This document shows, piece after piece, positions 9,517 through 49,910 of a stretch of DNA of 64,000 nt. Origin of the DNA: Fundidesulfovibrio agrisoli (lineage in GTDB: Bacteria > Desulfobacterota > Desulfovibrionia > Desulfovibrionales > Desulfovibrionaceae); the NCBI RefSeq assembly GCF_022808715.1, contig NZ_JAKZKX010000001.1:1-64000 (forward strand), written 5' to 3'. Position 1 is the first letter of the stretch, and each line of letters opens with the position of its first letter. Made by a program: the position numbers and the translations under genes. Below the pieces are notes generated by a model. The model ran no database searches, had not been told where the DNA came from, and worked only from the letters and a program-made list of their open reading frames with translations.

Positions 9517-10284
9517 CTATTGGCCCATGCCACCCATCGCGCCCATGCCGGCGGCGCCGGCCGCGCCTTGCGCTCCGGGGGGCGAGGACATGCCTCCCAT
9601 GCTTCCCATTCCTCCCATGCCGCTCATGCAGCCCATTCCGCCCATGCCTCCACCACCCATGCCCATGCCCATCATGCCCATGCCGCCCAACTGCATGGGC
9701 AGGCGGATGCCCGTCTCCTTGATGATCTGGGCGTGCATGTCGATGCCGAGATCGAGCATCTGTTCCTGGATGGAGGCGATCTCCTTGGCTGCGGCTTTGG
9801 CGTTGGCGGTGTCGGGCCGGGCCTGGAGCATGATGGCCTCAAGCTCCGCCTCCTTGGCGCGCAGGTTCTGGCGCAGGGTGAAGAGGCGCTCGCTGTATTC
9901 GTCCTGGATTCTGTACACGGCGAGCAGTTTCTCCTGAGGCACCGTTGCCATGCCGCCCATCATGGGGCCCATACCCATGCCCATACCGCCCATGCCCATG
10001 CCCATGCCACCCATGCCCATGCCCATGCCCGCACCTTGGCCGGGCCCGGTATTTGCGCCGAGGCCAGGCGCCTGATTGGCGGGAGCTCCCTGCCCGGCAT
10101 TCATCGCTCCCATCTTCATGAGGGCGTCCATGCCGGGATTCGGGCCTGGCGCGGGCTTGGCTGGTGCATTGCCGGACGGCGCCGCCGGAGGGGGAGCCGT
10201 CTGCGCGGCCAGCGCGGCCGCACCCTGGCACAGAAGAATCAGAACGCAGCATGCCGTTACAATGCTCTTTCCCGGAAGCCTCAT
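9517..10284 (-). CDS. exported Gly-Met-rich ZraP/Spy-like periplasmic protein
   Basis: A 255-residue secreted protein. A signal peptide (about 1-28, ...AAALAAQ) is followed by a Pro/Ala-rich linker, a first low-complexity block of GMGM repeats (about 85-110), a helical core (about 112-190: VPQEKLLAVYRIQDEYSERL...LRAKEAELEAI) resembling the Spy/CpxP/ZraP fold, and a second Met-Gly block running almost to the C-terminus. ZraP-type proteins are periplasmic zinc- or copper-responsive chaperones. The many methionines would suit soft metals such as Cu(I), which is inference. The start has AGGAG a few bases upstream. It is divergent from the NosL-like gene across a 500-base gap, which hints at a shared metal response. 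Confidence 0.78.
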   Translation of the reverse strand: MRLPGKSIVTACCVLILLCQGAAALAAQTAPPPAAPSGNAPAKPAPGPNPGMDALMKMGAMNAGQGAPANQAPGLGANTGPGQGAGMGMGMGGMGMGMGGMGMGMGPMMGGMATVPQEKLLAVYRIQDEYSERLFTLRQNLRAKEAELEAIMLQARPDTANAKAAAKEIASIQEQMLDLGIDMHAQIIKETGIRLPMQLGGMGMMGMGMGGGGMGGMGCMSGMGGMGSMGGMSSPPGAQGAAGAAGMGAMGGMGQ

Positions 10285-11640: not shown

Positions 11641-13884
11641 ATGATCGCGTCCCTTTCCCGAATCCTCCGGTTGGCGGCATTGGCGGTAGTGCTGGCGCTG
11701 CTCGCCGCCCAGGGCCGCGCTCCGGCCCAGGCGCAGACCCAGGCGCAGCCGCAGAATCCCGAGCCGCCCACCTCCCAGGCCTTCCCCTCCAGCCAGGAGC
11801 GCAGGCAGGTGCTGGTGCTGCACTCCTACCACAAGGGCCTGGCCTGGACCGACAGCGAGGACGCGGGCATCGATTCGGTGCTCGAGGGCAAGCCCGGGCT
11901 GGAGGTGTTCACCGAATACATGGACGCCAAGCGCTATGCCCAGCCCGCCGACAGCGAGCGCCTGGCCTCATATTATGCCCGCAAGTACGCCAACGCCCGC
12001 TTCGATGTGATCGTCGCCACCGACGACGACGCCTTCCAGTTCCTGCTCGCGCGGCGGGACACGCTGTTCCCCGGGGCGCAGGTGGTCTTCTGCGGGGTCA
12101 ACTACTTCGACGAGTCCATGATCGCCCACAGCGCCGGGGCCTACACCGGCGTGGTGGAGGCCTACGACGTGCGCAGCACGTTGCGCGCGGCCCTGGCCCT
12201 GCACCCGGGCACCTACCGCCTGGTGGTCATCAACGACCGCACCCCCACGGGGCAGGCCAACCGCAAGATACTTGCCGACGTGCTGCCCGAGTTCGAGAAG
12301 AAGGTCAGCGTGGTCTACCTGGACGACCTGACCACCGACGAGCTCCTGGCCAAGGTGCGCTCCCTGGCCACGGGCGACATCGTGCTGCTCATGACCTTCA
12401 ACCGGGACAAGGCCGGGCGGGTGATGGGCTACAACGAGTCCATCTCCCTGGTGGCGGGGCAGTCCAAGGTGCCGGTCTACGGCGTGTGGGATTTCTATCT
12501 CGGGCGAGGGCTCACCGGCGGGATGATAACCAACGGGTTGGACCAGGGCCGCCTGGCCGCGCAGATGGCCCTGCGCATCCTGGCGGGGGAGCGGGCGGGG
12601 TCCATCCCCGTGGTCAAGGAGAGCACCAACCGCTTCATGTTCGACTACGCCCAGCTCAAGCGCTTCGGCATCTCCCCCGACACCCTGCCGGAGGGCAGCA
12701 CGGTCATCAACCGGCCCACCTCCTTCTATGAGGAGCACTCCGGCAAGGTGCTGTCGGTGGGCGTGGCCTTCCTGCTCATGTCCGGTATGCTGGTGGCGCT
12801 GTGGGTGAACATTCAGCGCCGCAAGCGCACCGAAGCCAGCCTGCGCGAATCCGAGGAGAAGTTCGAGAAGATTTTCCGCCACAGCCCGGACTGGATCGCC
12901 ATCATGCGCCTCTCCGACGGCACCTACCTGGACGTCAACGACGCCTTCGAAAAGATCACCGGCTTCACCCGCGACGAAGTGCTGGGCAAGACCGCGCTGG
13001 ACATCGGCATCTACTCCAACCCCAAAGAACGCTACGAACTCGACGAGGCCTTCCTGCGCATGGGCCGCACCCAGATACAGGAGCTGCAATACCGCCTGAA
13101 ATCCGGCGAGGTCATCACCGTCGAACGGGCGGGCGAACTGGTGGAGATCGGCGGCGAGAGGTGCATCATCTCCATCGTGCGCGACATCACCAGCAAGAAG
13201 CAGGCGGAGCAGGCCCTCATCGAGACGGAGAAGCAGAAGAAGCTGCGCGCGGACGCCGAAATCAAGATGCTCCAGGCGCAGATCAACCCCCATTTCCTGT
13301 TCAACGCCATCACCTCCATCATGTACTACATCCGTACCGACCCGGAGGTGGCCTACAACCTGCTCGTGAAACTGGGGGACTTCTTCCGCAAGAACATCAA
13401 GCCCGGCGGCGCCAGCGTGCCCCTCTCCAAGGAGATAGACCACTGCGAGGACTACCTCTCCATCGAGCGCGCCCGCTTCGAGGAGAGGCTGCGCGTCAGC
13501 TACGACATCCATCCCGCCGCGCTGGATTGCCCCGTGCCGCCGCTGATCCTGCAGCCCCTGGTGGAGAACGCCCTGCGCCACGGCATCATGCCCAAGGAGG
13601 AGGGCGGCGAGATCGTCATCGGGGCCCACCCCGAGGACGGCGTCATCCGCATTTTCGTGCGCGACGACGGCGTGGGCATGGACGCCGCCACCGTCGCCTC
13701 CCTGCTGGACGAAAGCGGAGGCGCGCCCCCGCGCAAGGGCACCGGCCTGGCCCTGCGCAACGTCAACGCCCGGCTGGTGGCCATCCACGGCGCGCAGCAC
13801 GGCCTGAAGATCGAGAGCGAGCCGGGCAAGGGCACCACCATCTCCTTCACCATTCCGGCCATGGTGACGGCGGCGCCGCAGTGA
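11641..13884 (+). CDS. LytS-type sensor histidine kinase with ABC-type periplasmic sensor domain and PAS
   Basis: A 747-residue membrane sensor. A signal/anchor helix is followed by a periplasmic ABC_sub_bind-like region (about 55-360: VLVLHSYHKGLAWTDSEDAGI, later GVWDFYLGRGLTGG), a transmembrane helix near VLSVGVAFLLMSGMLVALWV, a PAS domain, and a His_kinase/HATPase module with the LytS signature QINPHFLFNAI (phospho-His ~551), PLVENALRHG and GTGLALRNVN. The sensor resembles the substrate-binding part of ABC importers, so it probably binds a small ligand. The downstream LytTR regulator overlaps by 4 bases (GTGA), so they form a two-component pair. Start is uncertain: ATG 11641 is chosen because the hydrophobic segment follows directly; 11620, 11605 and 11527 are in frame. 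Confidence 0.88.
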   Translation: MIASLSRILRLAALAVVLALLAAQGRAPAQAQTQAQPQNPEPPTSQAFPSSQERRQVLVLHSYHKGLAWTDSEDAGIDSVLEGKPGLEVFTEYMDAKRYAQPADSERLASYYARKYANARFDVIVATDDDAFQFLLARRDTLFPGAQVVFCGVNYFDESMIAHSAGAYTGVVEAYDVRSTLRAALALHPGTYRLVVINDRTPTGQANRKILADVLPEFEKKVSVVYLDDLTTDELLAKVRSLATGDIVLLMTFNRDKAGRVMGYNESISLVAGQSKVPVYGVWDFYLGRGLTGGMITNGLDQGRLAAQMALRILAGERAGSIPVVKESTNRFMFDYAQLKRFGISPDTLPEGSTVINRPTSFYEEHSGKVLSVGVAFLLMSGMLVALWVNIQRRKRTEASLRESEEKFEKIFRHSPDWIAIMRLSDGTYLDVNDAFEKITGFTRDEVLGKTALDIGIYSNPKERYELDEAFLRMGRTQIQELQYRLKSGEVITVERAGELVEIGGERCIISIVRDITSKKQAEQALIETEKQKKLRADAEIKMLQAQINPHFLFNAITSIMYYIRTDPEVAYNLLVKLGDFFRKNIKPGGASVPLSKEIDHCEDYLSIERARFEERLRVSYDIHPAALDCPVPPLILQPLVENALRHGIMPKEEGGEIVIGAHPEDGVIRIFVRDDGVGMDAATVASLLDESGGAPPRKGTGLALRNVNARLVAIHGAQHGLKIESEPGKGTTISFTIPAMVTAAPQ

Positions 13885-14627
13885 ACGTCTTCATCATCGA
13901 CGACGAAGGCCCGGTCCGGCGGGAGCTGCGCTACCTGCTGGGGCGCATCGAGGACGTGGCCGTGGTGGGGGAGGCGGCCAACGGCGCGGCCGCCATGCAG
14001 GAGCTGCGCACCCTGCAGCCCGACATGGTCTTCCTGGACGTCCAGATGCCCGGGCTCTCCGGCGTGGAACTCTCCTACCTGTTCGACGACCTCCCCCGGA
14101 AGCCGCTGCTCGTGTTCGTGACCGCCTACGAGGAGCACGCCGTGCAGGCCTTCGAACTGGACGCCCTGGACTACATCCTCAAGCCCTTCACCCTGGACCG
14201 GCTGCGCAAGAGCATCGACAAGGCCCGGCGCTACCTGCGCCTGGAGGAGGGCCAGCCGAGCCAGCCCGCACCCGCCGCAACGCCGCAGCAACTGGAGAAG
14301 CGCATCCCGCTCTACGACGGCGAGCGCATCGTGCCCACGCACCCCAGGCACATCTTCTACGTCTCCAGCGACGAGGGGCGCATCACCGTGCACGCCGTTC
14401 ACGGGCGCTACACGGCCAAGGCCACCATCGCCGAACTGGAGGAGCGCCTGGCTCCGCACGGCTTCTTCCGCGCCCACCGCAGCCACCTGGTGAACCTGAA
14501 CCACGTGGCCGAGATCATCCCCTGGACCGGCGGCAGCTACAAGCTCATCATGAGCGACAAGGAACGCTCGGAGATCCTTGTCAGCCGCTACAACGCCAAG
14601 GATCTCAAGGCGCACTTCGACCTGTAA
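13881..14627 (+). CDS. LytTR-family response regulator
   Basis: A 248-residue regulator starting at GTG 13881, inside the stop of the kinase gene (GTGA overlap), so the two are translationally coupled. The receiver domain occupies about 1-120, with acidic pocket DDE near residue 7, phospho-Asp53 (VFLDVQMPGLSG), Thr (VFVTAYEEHA) and Lys (DYILKPFTLDRL). A linker of about 30 residues leads to a LytTR DNA-binding domain (about 150-245; IFYVSSDEGRITVH, FFRAHRSHLVNLNHV). LytTR proteins bind direct repeats upstream of targets. The target genes are unknown; none of the immediate neighbours is an obvious candidate. Confidence 0.95.
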   Translation: MNVFIIDDEGPVRRELRYLLGRIEDVAVVGEAANGAAAMQELRTLQPDMVFLDVQMPGLSGVELSYLFDDLPRKPLLVFVTAYEEHAVQAFELDALDYILKPFTLDRLRKSIDKARRYLRLEEGQPSQPAPAATPQQLEKRIPLYDGERIVPTHPRHIFYVSSDEGRITVHAVHGRYTAKATIAELEERLAPHGFFRAHRSHLVNLNHVAEIIPWTGGSYKLIMSDKERSEILVSRYNAKDLKAHFDL

Positions 14628-14635
14628 GCCGGGCC

Positions 14636-14732
14636 GCGGAAAACGCCTCCGGCGGCCAGAGAGGGCGCTGCACTCTCCGGACTCTCCCGCCAGAGGAACT
14701 TCGTTCCTTTGGAATCCTCTCTTGCTTCGCGT
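14636..14732 (+). repeat. dispersed intergenic hairpin repeat, long form, copy A
   Basis: A 97-base unit starting GCGGAAAACGCCTCCGGCGG and ending GCTTCGCGT. It contains a stem CCAGAGGAAC (14690-14699), loop TTC, GTTCCTTTGG (14703-14712), with one G-T wobble. An almost identical copy lies 125 bases downstream, and a third long copy at 48414. It starts right after the LytTR stop codon. No protein is encoded. Confidence 0.85.
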
Positions 14733-14760
14733 CTCTGGGCGTTGCCGTGTCCATCGTGGG

Positions 14761-14857
14761 GCGGAAAACGCCTCCGGCGGCCAGAGAGGGCGCTGCACTC
14801 TCCGGACTCTCCCGCCAAAGGAACTTCGTTCCTTTGGAATCCTTCATTGCTTCGCGT
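14761..14857 (+). repeat. dispersed intergenic hairpin repeat, long form, copy B
   Basis: A direct copy of the unit at 14636, the same length with only a handful of differences. The stem is perfect here: CCAAAGGAAC (14815-14824), loop TTC, GTTCCTTTGG (14828-14837). The 28 bases separating copies A and B are unrelated to the repeat. Confidence 0.85.
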
Positions 14858-15005
14858 TGGCCGATGCCGCCCCGTCCGTGGCGCGGTATGATGTGCTGTT
14901 TGTGATGTCGCCGTCCGGCAGGCCCGCACCGCTGGCGACTGGCCCAGCGCCTGGAGCCTCTGTGCCGATCAAGCACAGGAACGCCTCGATGAACGCGACG
15001 CGGAA

Positions 15006-15049
15006 GGTGATTCCAAAGGGACGAAGTCCCTTTGGCCGCCGGAAGCGCT
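15006..15049 (-). repeat. dispersed intergenic hairpin repeat, short form, copy C (inverted)
   Basis: Inverted relative to copies A and B and lacking the internal about 30-base segment. Read on the minus strand it gives CTTCCGGCGG, then stem CCAAAGGGAC, loop TTC, GTCCCTTTGG. Relative to copies A/B, one A-T pair of the stem is replaced by G-C, so pairing is kept. Confidence 0.8.
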
Positions 15050-15133
15050 CATCGTTTCCGGCCGCACCAGTACTCCCGAGCTTCCATCCAAGGGAAAACG
15101 GCCTCCATTGAGCCCGATATCCTGACCATTCAA

Positions 15134-15162
15134 CCCAATAAACGCTCCATTGGGGCTTTTTC
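15134..15162 (+). terminator. intrinsic terminator-like hairpin upstream of lutC
   Basis: CCCAAT (15134-15139) pairs with ATTGGG (15149-15154), followed by GCTTTTTCG. The stem is short but the T-run is good. It would stop plus-strand transcription coming from the LytTR gene or the repeat region before the lut genes. Confidence 0.6.
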
Positions 15163-15415
15163 GTTCTGTAACATGCTGTAATTATTGTACGCACTGCGCC
15201 GGATGACGGCCCCGGCGGGGGCAGGGCCTTGCGCTGCCTCGCTCGATGCCCTTTGGGGGGCGGAGGGCCACCATTCATCCTCTGTAGAGGCAGTTTGAAA
15301 TTATTTTTGGCCATATCCCGCGAGGGTGACTACGTACTCCCCACGGGCCGCACCGCGTGCGGCATGCTTGCAACGGGCGGCGCACCCGCAGCCCTTAATC
15401 GAGGAGGACCGAAGC

Positions 15416-47397: not shown

Positions 47398-48405
47398 ATG
47401 AAAGCAATCCTGGCCGCAGGCGGCAGCAAGGCCGCCGACCCCAAGGCCTTTCGCGAGGCCGATATCGAAACGCCCCGGGCCGCCGGGCGCGATCTGCTGG
47501 TGAAGGTGCAGGCCGTCTCCGTCAATCCCGTGGACACCAAGATCCGCATGCGCACCCCTGTGGGCACCGACATTGTGCTCGGCTGGGACGCCTGCGGCGT
47601 GGTGGAGGGCGCAGGCCCGAACCTGCGCTCCTTCGCCGCCGGCGACAGGGTCTATTATTCCGGGGCCATGACCAGGCCCGGCACCAACGCCGAATATCAT
47701 CTGGTGGACGAGCGCATCGTGGGCCACGCGCCGAAGAGCGTTTCCGTGGCCCAAGCGGCGGCCATGCCCCTGACCACCATCACCGCCTTCGAGGCGCTGT
47801 TCGACCGCCTCGGCTTCGCCCCGTCGCAAGGGGCCAACGCCGGGCGCAACGTGCTCATCGTGGGCGGCGCGGGCGGCGTGGGCTCCATGGCCATCCAGCT
47901 CGCGCGCTGGGCCGGGCTGACCGTGGTGGCCACGGCCTCCCGCCAGGACACCGTGGACTGGTGCAAGCAGCTCGGCGCCAACGTGGTGGCGGATCACCGC
48001 CAGCCCCTGGCCGAGGCCGTTCGCGCACAGGGGTTTCAGGTGGTCGACGCCATTTTCTGCACCACCCACATGGAGAAGCACTGGATGCAGATGGCCGAGA
48101 TCATCAAGCCCCAGGGTCGCGTGGCCCTCATCGACGACCCCTCGGGCCCGGTGGACATAACGGCCTTCAAGCGCAAGTGCGCGTCCATCCATTGGGAATT
48201 CATGTTCGCGCGCCCGCTGTACGAAACGCCGGACATGGGCAGGCAGGGGGAGATTCTCGAGGAGGTCGCCGGGCTGGTGGATGCGGGCGTGCTGCGCAGC
48301 ACGCTGCGCGAGACCCTGGACGGGCTCACGGCCGCAAACGTGCAGGCCGCGCATGTGAGGCAGGAGAGCGCGACCATGATCGGCAAGCAGGTGATCGTTT
48401 TCTGA
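47398..48405 (+). CDS. zinc-type alcohol dehydrogenase-like / quinone oxidoreductase family protein
   Basis: A 335-residue MDR-superfamily oxidoreductase. A GroES-like N-terminal domain (VKVQAVSVNPVDTKIRMRTPVG, GWDACGVVEGAG) is followed by a Rossmann domain binding NADPH (VLIVGGAGGVGSMAIQLARWAGLTVVATAS). The cysteine/histidine ligands of catalytic and structural zinc are absent, so it is more like the ZADH/quinone reductase group. Substrate unknown. The Shine-Dalgarno CAGGAGGA precedes ATG 47398. It follows the exporter permease after 65 bases and could be cotranscribed. Confidence 0.9.
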   Translation: MKAILAAGGSKAADPKAFREADIETPRAAGRDLLVKVQAVSVNPVDTKIRMRTPVGTDIVLGWDACGVVEGAGPNLRSFAAGDRVYYSGAMTRPGTNAEYHLVDERIVGHAPKSVSVAQAAAMPLTTITAFEALFDRLGFAPSQGANAGRNVLIVGGAGGVGSMAIQLARWAGLTVVATASRQDTVDWCKQLGANVVADHRQPLAEAVRAQGFQVVDAIFCTTHMEKHWMQMAEIIKPQGRVALIDDPSGPVDITAFKRKCASIHWEFMFARPLYETPDMGRQGEILEEVAGLVDAGVLRSTLRETLDGLTAANVQAAHVRQESATMIGKQVIVF

Positions 48406-48413
48406 GGTGAGAG

Positions 48414-48500
48414 GAGGGGGGAAGCCTCCGGCGGTCAGAGAGGGCGCTGCCCTCTCTGGACTCTCCCGCCAAAGGAACTTCGTTCCTTTGGAATCCTTTA
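48414..48500 (+). repeat. dispersed intergenic hairpin repeat, long form, copy D
   Basis: Starts GGGGGGAAGCCTCCGGCGG and matches copies A and B at 14.6 kb through the hairpin CCAAAGGAAC (48469-48478), loop TTC, GTTCCTTTGG (48482-48491). A second stem, AGAGAGGG/CCCTCTCT (48438-48458), is complete here but has a mismatch in copies A and B. It sits just past the stop of the oxidoreductase gene. Confidence 0.85.
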
Positions 48501-48554
48501 TATTGTCGTTGATTGGCTGAACAAACCGGCGGTCGGCGACATTGCCGACAAGAA

Positions 48555-48614
48555 CGCGAAGCCGTATGGGATTCCAAAGGGAGGAACTCCCTTTGGCCGC
48601 CGGAGGCTCCCCCC
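48555..48614 (-). repeat. dispersed intergenic hairpin repeat, short form, copy E (inverted)
   Basis: Read on the minus strand: GGGGGGAGCCTCCGGCGG, then stem CCAAAGGGAG, loop TTC, CTCCCTTTGG, then GGAATCCC...GCTTCGCGTTC. It is the inverted short partner of copy D, so the locus 48414-48614 has near-identical inverted ends. Two stem pairs differ from copy D but remain paired. It abuts the stop of the convergent yihY gene. Confidence 0.85.
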
Positions 48615-49910
48615 CTACAAGAATCTCCGCCAGCCCGTCGGGGCCGGAGCCTCCTGACCGCTGCCGCCACCGTCGCCTGAATCCCGCTCCTGCGGCAAAG
48701 TCTCGTACAGCTCCCGCAGGGTCCTGCCGTCCACCTCCCGGCAGGCGGTCTCCATGCCTTTCCTGAGCCGGGCCAGCACGGGGTATCGTCCGTCCAGGTC
48801 GGGGATGGGGCCGTCGCCGCGCAGATTCTCCCACCCGGTGAGCAGCTCGCCCACGGTGATCCTGTCCGGCGCTGCCAGCAGCACGTACCCTCCGCCCTCG
48901 ACCCGTGCCGCGATGCCGATGCGCGCCAGGCGGGCCAGCTCCTCCTCCACCACCAGGGGCGGCAGCCCTCCGGCCTGGGCCGCGTCCTCCGCCAGCAGGG
49001 GGCCGCCCGCGGTCTCGGCCTTCTCCGTGAGCATGAGCGCCGCCAGCAGGGCCACGCCGCGCCTGTCCGCCAGGGAATAGGCCGCGCCGGCCGCCCGCGC
49101 GGCCTCACTCGGCGCGCTCTGGATGGCGTGGGCCAGCTCGGCCCCGGCCAGCACGATGAGCCAGCTGATGTAGAGCCAGACCAGCAGCAGCGGTATCTGG
49201 GCGAAGCTGCCGTAGATGGCGTTGTAGCCCGTGACCCCGATCTGGTAGCGGATATAGGCCGCCTGGGCCAGCTGCCAGCCGATGCCGGCTGCCAGGGCTC
49301 CCGCGGCGGCGGGGAGGGCGCGCACCTCCACGTTGGGCAGGAACTTGTAGAGCACGAACAGCGACACGCAGACCATCAGCGTGGGAACGGCCTTGAGCCC
49401 CAGGGTGAAGGCTTTGTTGACCAGCTCGATCTCGCCCAGCCAGTGCACCACCTGCGCGTTCTGGAAGGTGGCCGTGACGCTGAAGGCCGCCAGGATGAAC
49501 AGCGGGCAGACCAGGATCACGGTGAGGTAGTTGGTGAGGCGGCTCCAGGCCCCACGGTTGCCGGGGGCGCGCCAGATGACGTTGCAGGCTTCCTCCACGG
49601 TGGAGATCAGGCCCGCCGAGGTGATGAAGAGCATGGCCACGCCGATGAAGCCCAGGGCGCGCACGTTGGTGTTCTGGATGTAGCCCAGCACCGCGTCCAC
49701 GATGTCGGCCTTCTCGGCGGTGAGCCGCAGCAGCGCCTCCCGCAGGTAGGGCGCGTCGTAGACGCCGAATCCCTTGGCCAGGGAGAAGGCCACGGCCAAC
49801 AGCGGCACCAAGGAGAGCACCGTGGCGTAGCAGAGCGCCGAGGCCATCATCAGGCAGCGGTTGCCCAGGAAGGAGCGGACGAGGGTGAGGCCCAGGCGCG
49901 CGGGGGTCAT
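48615..49910 (-). CDS. YihY/BrkB-family inner-membrane protein
   Basis: A 431-residue YihY (UPF0761) protein. The membrane part (about 1-275) shows the family order: [137 protein letters not shown]. The C-terminal about 150 residues look like a cytosolic winged-helix extension. Function is unsettled; the old name ribonuclease BN is wrong for this family. ATG 49910 follows GAGGA; the frame runs back to 50030 without homology. Confidence 0.9.

Follow-up and report, generated by a model that had tools for sequence, protein, structure and literature searches.

What kind of element recurs between the genes of this Fundidesulfovibrio agrisoli contig, and is its hairpin preserved as a fold? In the window, which here denotes the whole analysed stretch of 64,000 nucleotides, the original prediction had placed five copies (A to E) of a dispersed intergenic repeat, the hairpin of which was said to be kept by compensatory base changes. 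All five copies were found where they had been predicted, with matching arms and loops, and a covariance model run with filters off recovered copies A to E at E<1e-5, together with extra first hairpins in the long copies. The coordinates are given in Table 1.

Table 1. Repeat copies and adjoining genes in the window
Feature	Positions	Strand	Details
Copy A, long form	14645..14732	+	Head GCCTCCGGCGG; hairpin 1 at 14656-14680; hairpin 2 at 14690-14712; flank AATCC; tail GCTTCGCGT
Copy B, long form	14770..14857	+	Parts as in copy A; hairpin 2 at 14815-14837; tail GCTTCGCGT
Copy C, short inverted form	14995..15046	-	Hairpin at 15013-15035; flank; variant head and tail; model score 59.1 bits
Copy D, long form without GCTTCGCGT tail	48425..48499	+	Hairpin 2 at 48469-48491
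Copy E, short inverted form	48553..48607	-	Tail; flank AATCCC; hairpin at 48574-48596; head; model score 70.1 bits
ORF, 3' end ahead of copies A and B	13881..14627	+	Home-made gene calling
ORF, 3' end ahead of copy D; convergent with ORF 48615..49910	47398..48405	+	Home-made gene calling
ORF, 3' end ahead of copy E on the minus strand	48615..49910	-	Home-made gene calling

The repeat was 40-90 bases long. Its head (GCCTCCGGCGG) was constant and was followed by a hairpin that began with CC and ended with GG; the 5' arm of this hairpin was homopurine and the 3' arm pyrimidine. Next came a flank rich in pyrimidines and, frequently, the tail GCTTCGCGT. Copies A, B and D each contained two hairpins, an outer one (CCAGAGAGGG..CCTCTCTGG) between the head and the main hairpin and then the one described before. 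The earlier account of long and short copies was correct in positions, arms and loops but had overlooked this second hairpin, as well as the mirror-repeat flank and the placement at gene ends. The tail was missing from copy D and changed in copy C, whose head also differed by one change (TTCCGGCGG). The TTC loop occurred in all five window copies but was not constant in the family as a whole, where TGC, AGT and others were found. No T-run followed the hairpins, as had been predicted, and an identity as intrinsic terminators was rejected for that reason. Behind copy C, a canonical terminator-like hairpin (CCCAAT..ATTGGGG, then TTTTT) was seen by eye at 15128-15165, although a crude scan did not pick it up on the plus strand. 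Elsewhere in the window, at 9605-10038, repeated CCCATGCC units lay in a minus-strand ORF for a low-complexity protein.

The further analyses used stretches around individual copies (loci labelled L) in this genome (G000; 3.94 Mb in 52 contigs) and in related ones. The exact 12-mer of the head (CTCCGGCGGYCA) occurred 141 times in G000 and 4 times for the reversed control, far above chance. Of the first 100 places in the list, some 86 were judged by eye and by gene context to be true repeats. A genome-wide covariance-model search gave at least 151 matches, so that the family has at least 150 members in this genome and is dispersed and intergenic, as had been proposed. Exact heads numbered 61-165 per genome in the congeners G001-G006 and 43-106 in G011, G030 and G034, and there were nearly none in many other genera of the taxonomic family. 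Among named genomes, the head together with AAAGGG was found mostly in Desulfovibrio and Solidesulfovibrio, and also in records labelled Oscillibacter, Selenomonadaceae, Aminicenantes and Alphaproteobacteria, where the labels of metagenome-assembled genomes may be wrong. An exact 18-mer of the element matched many loci in genome contigs, and an exact 39-mer matched none there. A search of papers for the element sequence returned only unrelated primers. No locus scanned against Rfam scored above the gathering score for the repeat, and membership of an Rfam RNA family was rejected on this ground; a plasmid or phage origin was rejected because no copies were found when plasmids and phages were searched. 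It was also observed, at the starts of contigs C4, C5, C10, C11, C13, C15, C19, C29, C30 and C32, that many draft contigs open 70-300 nt away from a repeat copy.

Pairing in the stem was evaluated in 24 distinct ten-pair copies. Of all cells, 96.3% were paired, and the covariation score was 0.267, compared with 0.075 for shuffled and 0.04-0.07 for slid alignments. The signal came from three loop-side pairs, in which both sides had changed in 3, 8 and 10 of the 24 copies with zero broken cells; six stem pairs were invariant and hence uninformative. One stem position did vary without keeping its pair, as a fixed A.C mismatch in 9 of the 24 copies, an outcome that had been named in advance as speaking against the prediction. 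These results indicated that pairing is preserved as predicted, but that the changes are not independent compensations, because whole subfamilies have them in common and, at orthologous sites, they were moved en bloc. The compensatory changes are thus mostly differences between subfamilies, and the evidence for the fold is carried by a few of them.

The placement of the repeat relative to genes was also evaluated. Among 71 copies with both neighbours, 29 lay in convergent gaps, 41 in tandem gaps (20 sense and 21 antisense) and 1 in a divergent gap, whereas 8 of the 32 intergenic gaps of at least 60 nt in the window were divergent. Heads in sense orientation lay at a median of 57 nt past the stop codon, and the head of copy A about 18 nt past that of the ORF ending at 14627; these distances are approximate, since the home-made gene caller misplaced some neighbours, such as the gene before copy A in L001. 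The repeat shuns divergent gaps and sits, in almost every case, shortly behind stop codons, in either orientation. Repetitive extragenic palindromes (REPs) likewise avoid divergent gaps, and their transcription is presumed (PMC3733652).

Past the closing GG, the sequence of the 3' arm recurred in mirror order, with A instead of T close to the turn. The arm and flank types included CCCTTT with AATCCC or AAACCC, CCCTCT with ACTCCC, CCCCTT with AACCCC, CCCTCTCT with ACTCTCCC, and CCTTT with AATCC. Read on the opposite strand (30 nt, GGGATTCCAAAGGG-loop-CCCTTTGG; an AGAGGG type also exists), the flank becomes a third segment that runs antiparallel to the purine arm, placing G over G-C and A or T over A-T. 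We wrote this rule down from the sequences before comparing it with the class I intrastrand triplex, which is defined by three collinear segments that obey the purine-motif triplet code, with a stem of at least 6 and loops of 1-6 (PMC4666352). As a sequence criterion, this definition held at 0.93 of positions in the arm types of G000, compared with 0.68 (maximum 0.83) when flanks were shuffled; with one flank per arm type it was 0.88 against 0.60, a value reached in 0 of 5000 shuffles. The family scored 0.94 and other homopurine hairpins in the same DNA 0.39, many of these controls being the same hairpins on the other strand. The pyrimidine rule gave 0.72 against 0.93 for the purine rule, and a pyrimidine triplex motif on the plus strand was discarded for its poorer fit; a fold in which the flank would pair with the loop and the 5' arm was rejected on inspection, being possible only for the GAGTTCC subtype. 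Mirror matches were found for the arm types TTTCCC, TCTCCC, TTCCCC, TCCCCG, TCTCTC, TTTCCT, TCCTCT and TCCCTC, in other genera too. The closing CC.GG pairs leave only two bases for the turn of the third strand, and variants at these positions retain their pairing (CG.CG in L039), so that the Watson-Crick stem seems to extend beyond the turn; this speaks against the triplex fold. The mirror flank shows triplex potential only.

The comparison with the sister species G003 (93% identity in coding parts) indicated how the copies change. Same-site alignment was obtained for 43 of 87 copies, most of the others lying outside the comparison, and identity was 0.945 within the element against 0.811 in the adjoining 60 nt. 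In the window, the site of copy A also held a long copy in G003, the T.G pair in hairpin 1 of copy D was G-C there, and about 60 nt of copy E were identical while the neighbouring sequence had diverged. At four orthologous sites (L055/L292, L073/L246, L031/L268 and L056/L293) the hairpin type had been swapped as a block, and at L073/L246 the types of both members of an inverted pair were interchanged between the species. Gene conversion between copies would be the simplest account of these swaps. An empty-site test at two loci found L084 occupied in G003 and L018 empty, with about 86 nt including the element missing, and no head was found in the orthologous region of L018 in G001, G002, G004 and G005. 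The L018 copy is thus probably a recent gain, a view that rests on this one locus.

A second dispersed hairpin family was noticed in the same genome outside the window (L318-L347, L022, L030, L041, L045, L060, L077, L083 and L088). Its loop core, TATTTGAAGAAYRTC, had 37 exact copies against 0 in the reversed control, and most cores lay within stems of about 28-48 bp, the arms of which varied from locus to locus; no Rfam match was found among the loci scanned. The arms of L318/L220 and of L337/L247 differed between G000 and G003 by paired changes that preserve the stem, and covariation looks stronger here than in the repeat family. In seven copies (L321, L324, L333, L334, L335, L338 and L347) the loop lay 63-67 nt from a repeat head and in others 90-220 nt; the two families therefore form composite mosaics. 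Several contigs start inside long hairpins of this second family, which probably mark assembly breaks.

Compared with known systems, the repeat resembled REP and BIME sequences: it is a short palindrome with over 100 extragenic copies, which lie mostly in convergent or tandem gaps, avoid divergent ones and form inverted pairs (PMC3733652). Unlike them, it has a constant head on one side, a mirror flank and hairpin types that differ as blocks between orthologous sites. By inspection, no GTAG tetranucleotide was present at the element ends of the copies listed; nor did the copies have a systematic CGTC end, the tail being GCTTCGCGT or GCTTCGCGC followed by variable bases and absent from many copies. 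GTAG-REPs come with a RAYT, whereas CGTC-REPs, like this repeat, are without a dedicated transposase (PMC3733652). The repeat also resembled PIT elements, BoxC and TM-ECO, which are intergenic, repeated in either orientation, and combine a homopurine/pyrimidine hairpin with a third segment in mirror form that follows G*GC and A/T*AT; it differs from TM-ECO in having its third segment on the 5' side (class I order, as against class II), in its 6-8 rather than 9 triplets, in its turn of 2-4 nt and in its sequence (PMC4666352). The main text of that paper makes no mention of Desulfovibrio-type genomes. With intrinsic terminators it shares a G+C-rich hairpin behind genes, but a T-run is present on neither side, and downstream of some copies there is a canonical terminator of its own.

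Two of the rival explanations concern how such copies move. Mobilisation in trans by a RAYT (TnpA-REP) would agree with the size, copy number, inverted pairs and extragenic placement of the repeat. However, PF01797, the Y1/RAYT transposase family, was not found in G000-G006 (this genome and six congeners), and together with the lack of a GTAG tag this disfavours the mechanism for the genus; we regard it as very improbable. A RAYT ancestor may have been lost, since Y1 proteins are present in G011 and G030, two other genera that carry repeat copies. A miniature inverted-repeat element (MITE) of about 86 nt including the tail, moved by a non-Y1 transposase, would fit the probable gain at L018, but neither terminal inverted repeats nor a clear target duplication could be seen there, and the failure to find copies on plasmids or phages also tells against a MITE, which is improbable, if slightly less so than a RAYT.

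The other rivals concern what is maintained. If a few founders that differed in arm and flank had simply spread, the mirror flank and the covariation would both reflect ancestry alone, and no selection for a triplex would be needed. This account, which is compatible with a REP-like identity, gains from the adjacency of arm and flank, which travel together in the block swaps, and from a chimeric subfamily (5' arm AAAGGG with CCCTCT..ACTCCC) in which the arm-flank match is kept despite a mismatched 5' arm. That subfamily behaves as simple co-inheritance of adjacent bases would, which counts against triplex selection, and subfamily descent reduces the number of independent tests of the arm-flank rule. 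Shared ancestry accounts for the linkage but not for the mirror match in founders of many arm types, other genera included, and we consider it somewhat less likely than not. The converse proposal, that a DNA triple helix is the state in which the family is maintained, would draw on the two arms and the third segment having changed together, in different genera and in several independent arm types, and it seems rather unlikely. Slightly less doubtful is an RNA element of 3' untranslated regions, in which a hairpin in either direction would block 3'-to-5' exonucleases or mark 3' ends after Rho-dependent termination, with pairing selected in the RNA. The position just past stop codons, the avoidance of divergent gaps, a preserved hairpin in both orientations and the similar placement of REPs suit this idea. 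Against it, head and tail are directional, yet tandem gaps show no orientation bias, and in a crude scan no more than 16 of 57 sense and 7 of 46 antisense copies had a canonical terminator behind them, so that transcription through most copies is conjectural. The idea also leaves the mirror flank unexplained, since RNA is reported not to form triplexes of the purine motif (PMC4666352).

Collectively, our preferred reading is a family of short DNA fold-back repeats at gene ends, REP/BIME-like and independent of RAYTs in this genus, with triplex potential and proposed to act at the DNA level; the statement as a whole has a probability of about 0.5. Its REP/BIME-like, gene-end fold-back identity is likely, whereas the DNA-level mechanism is less likely than not. 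Under that mechanism, the minus-orientation strand, when single during replication or recombination, would fold as a hairpin with a reverse-Hoogsteen third strand, forming a class I intrastrand triplex. Copies may spread and become homogenised through recombination or the action of an enzyme, and would persist behind genes, where insertions are expected to be least harmful and a hairpin in the 3' region of a transcript could be tolerated or protective.

The repeat is related, in an unusual form, to intergenic repeats already known from bacteria. With one copy probably inserted recently in a genus that lacks Y1 transposases, the question arises of how REP-like elements can spread where RAYTs are missing. 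If maintenance as a triple helix were true, the family would provide comparative evidence for an intrastrand triplex as the selected state of a bacterial repeat, and, since a matching third segment accompanies each of its many arm types, triplex selection in bacterial repeats becomes testable by simple oligonucleotide work.
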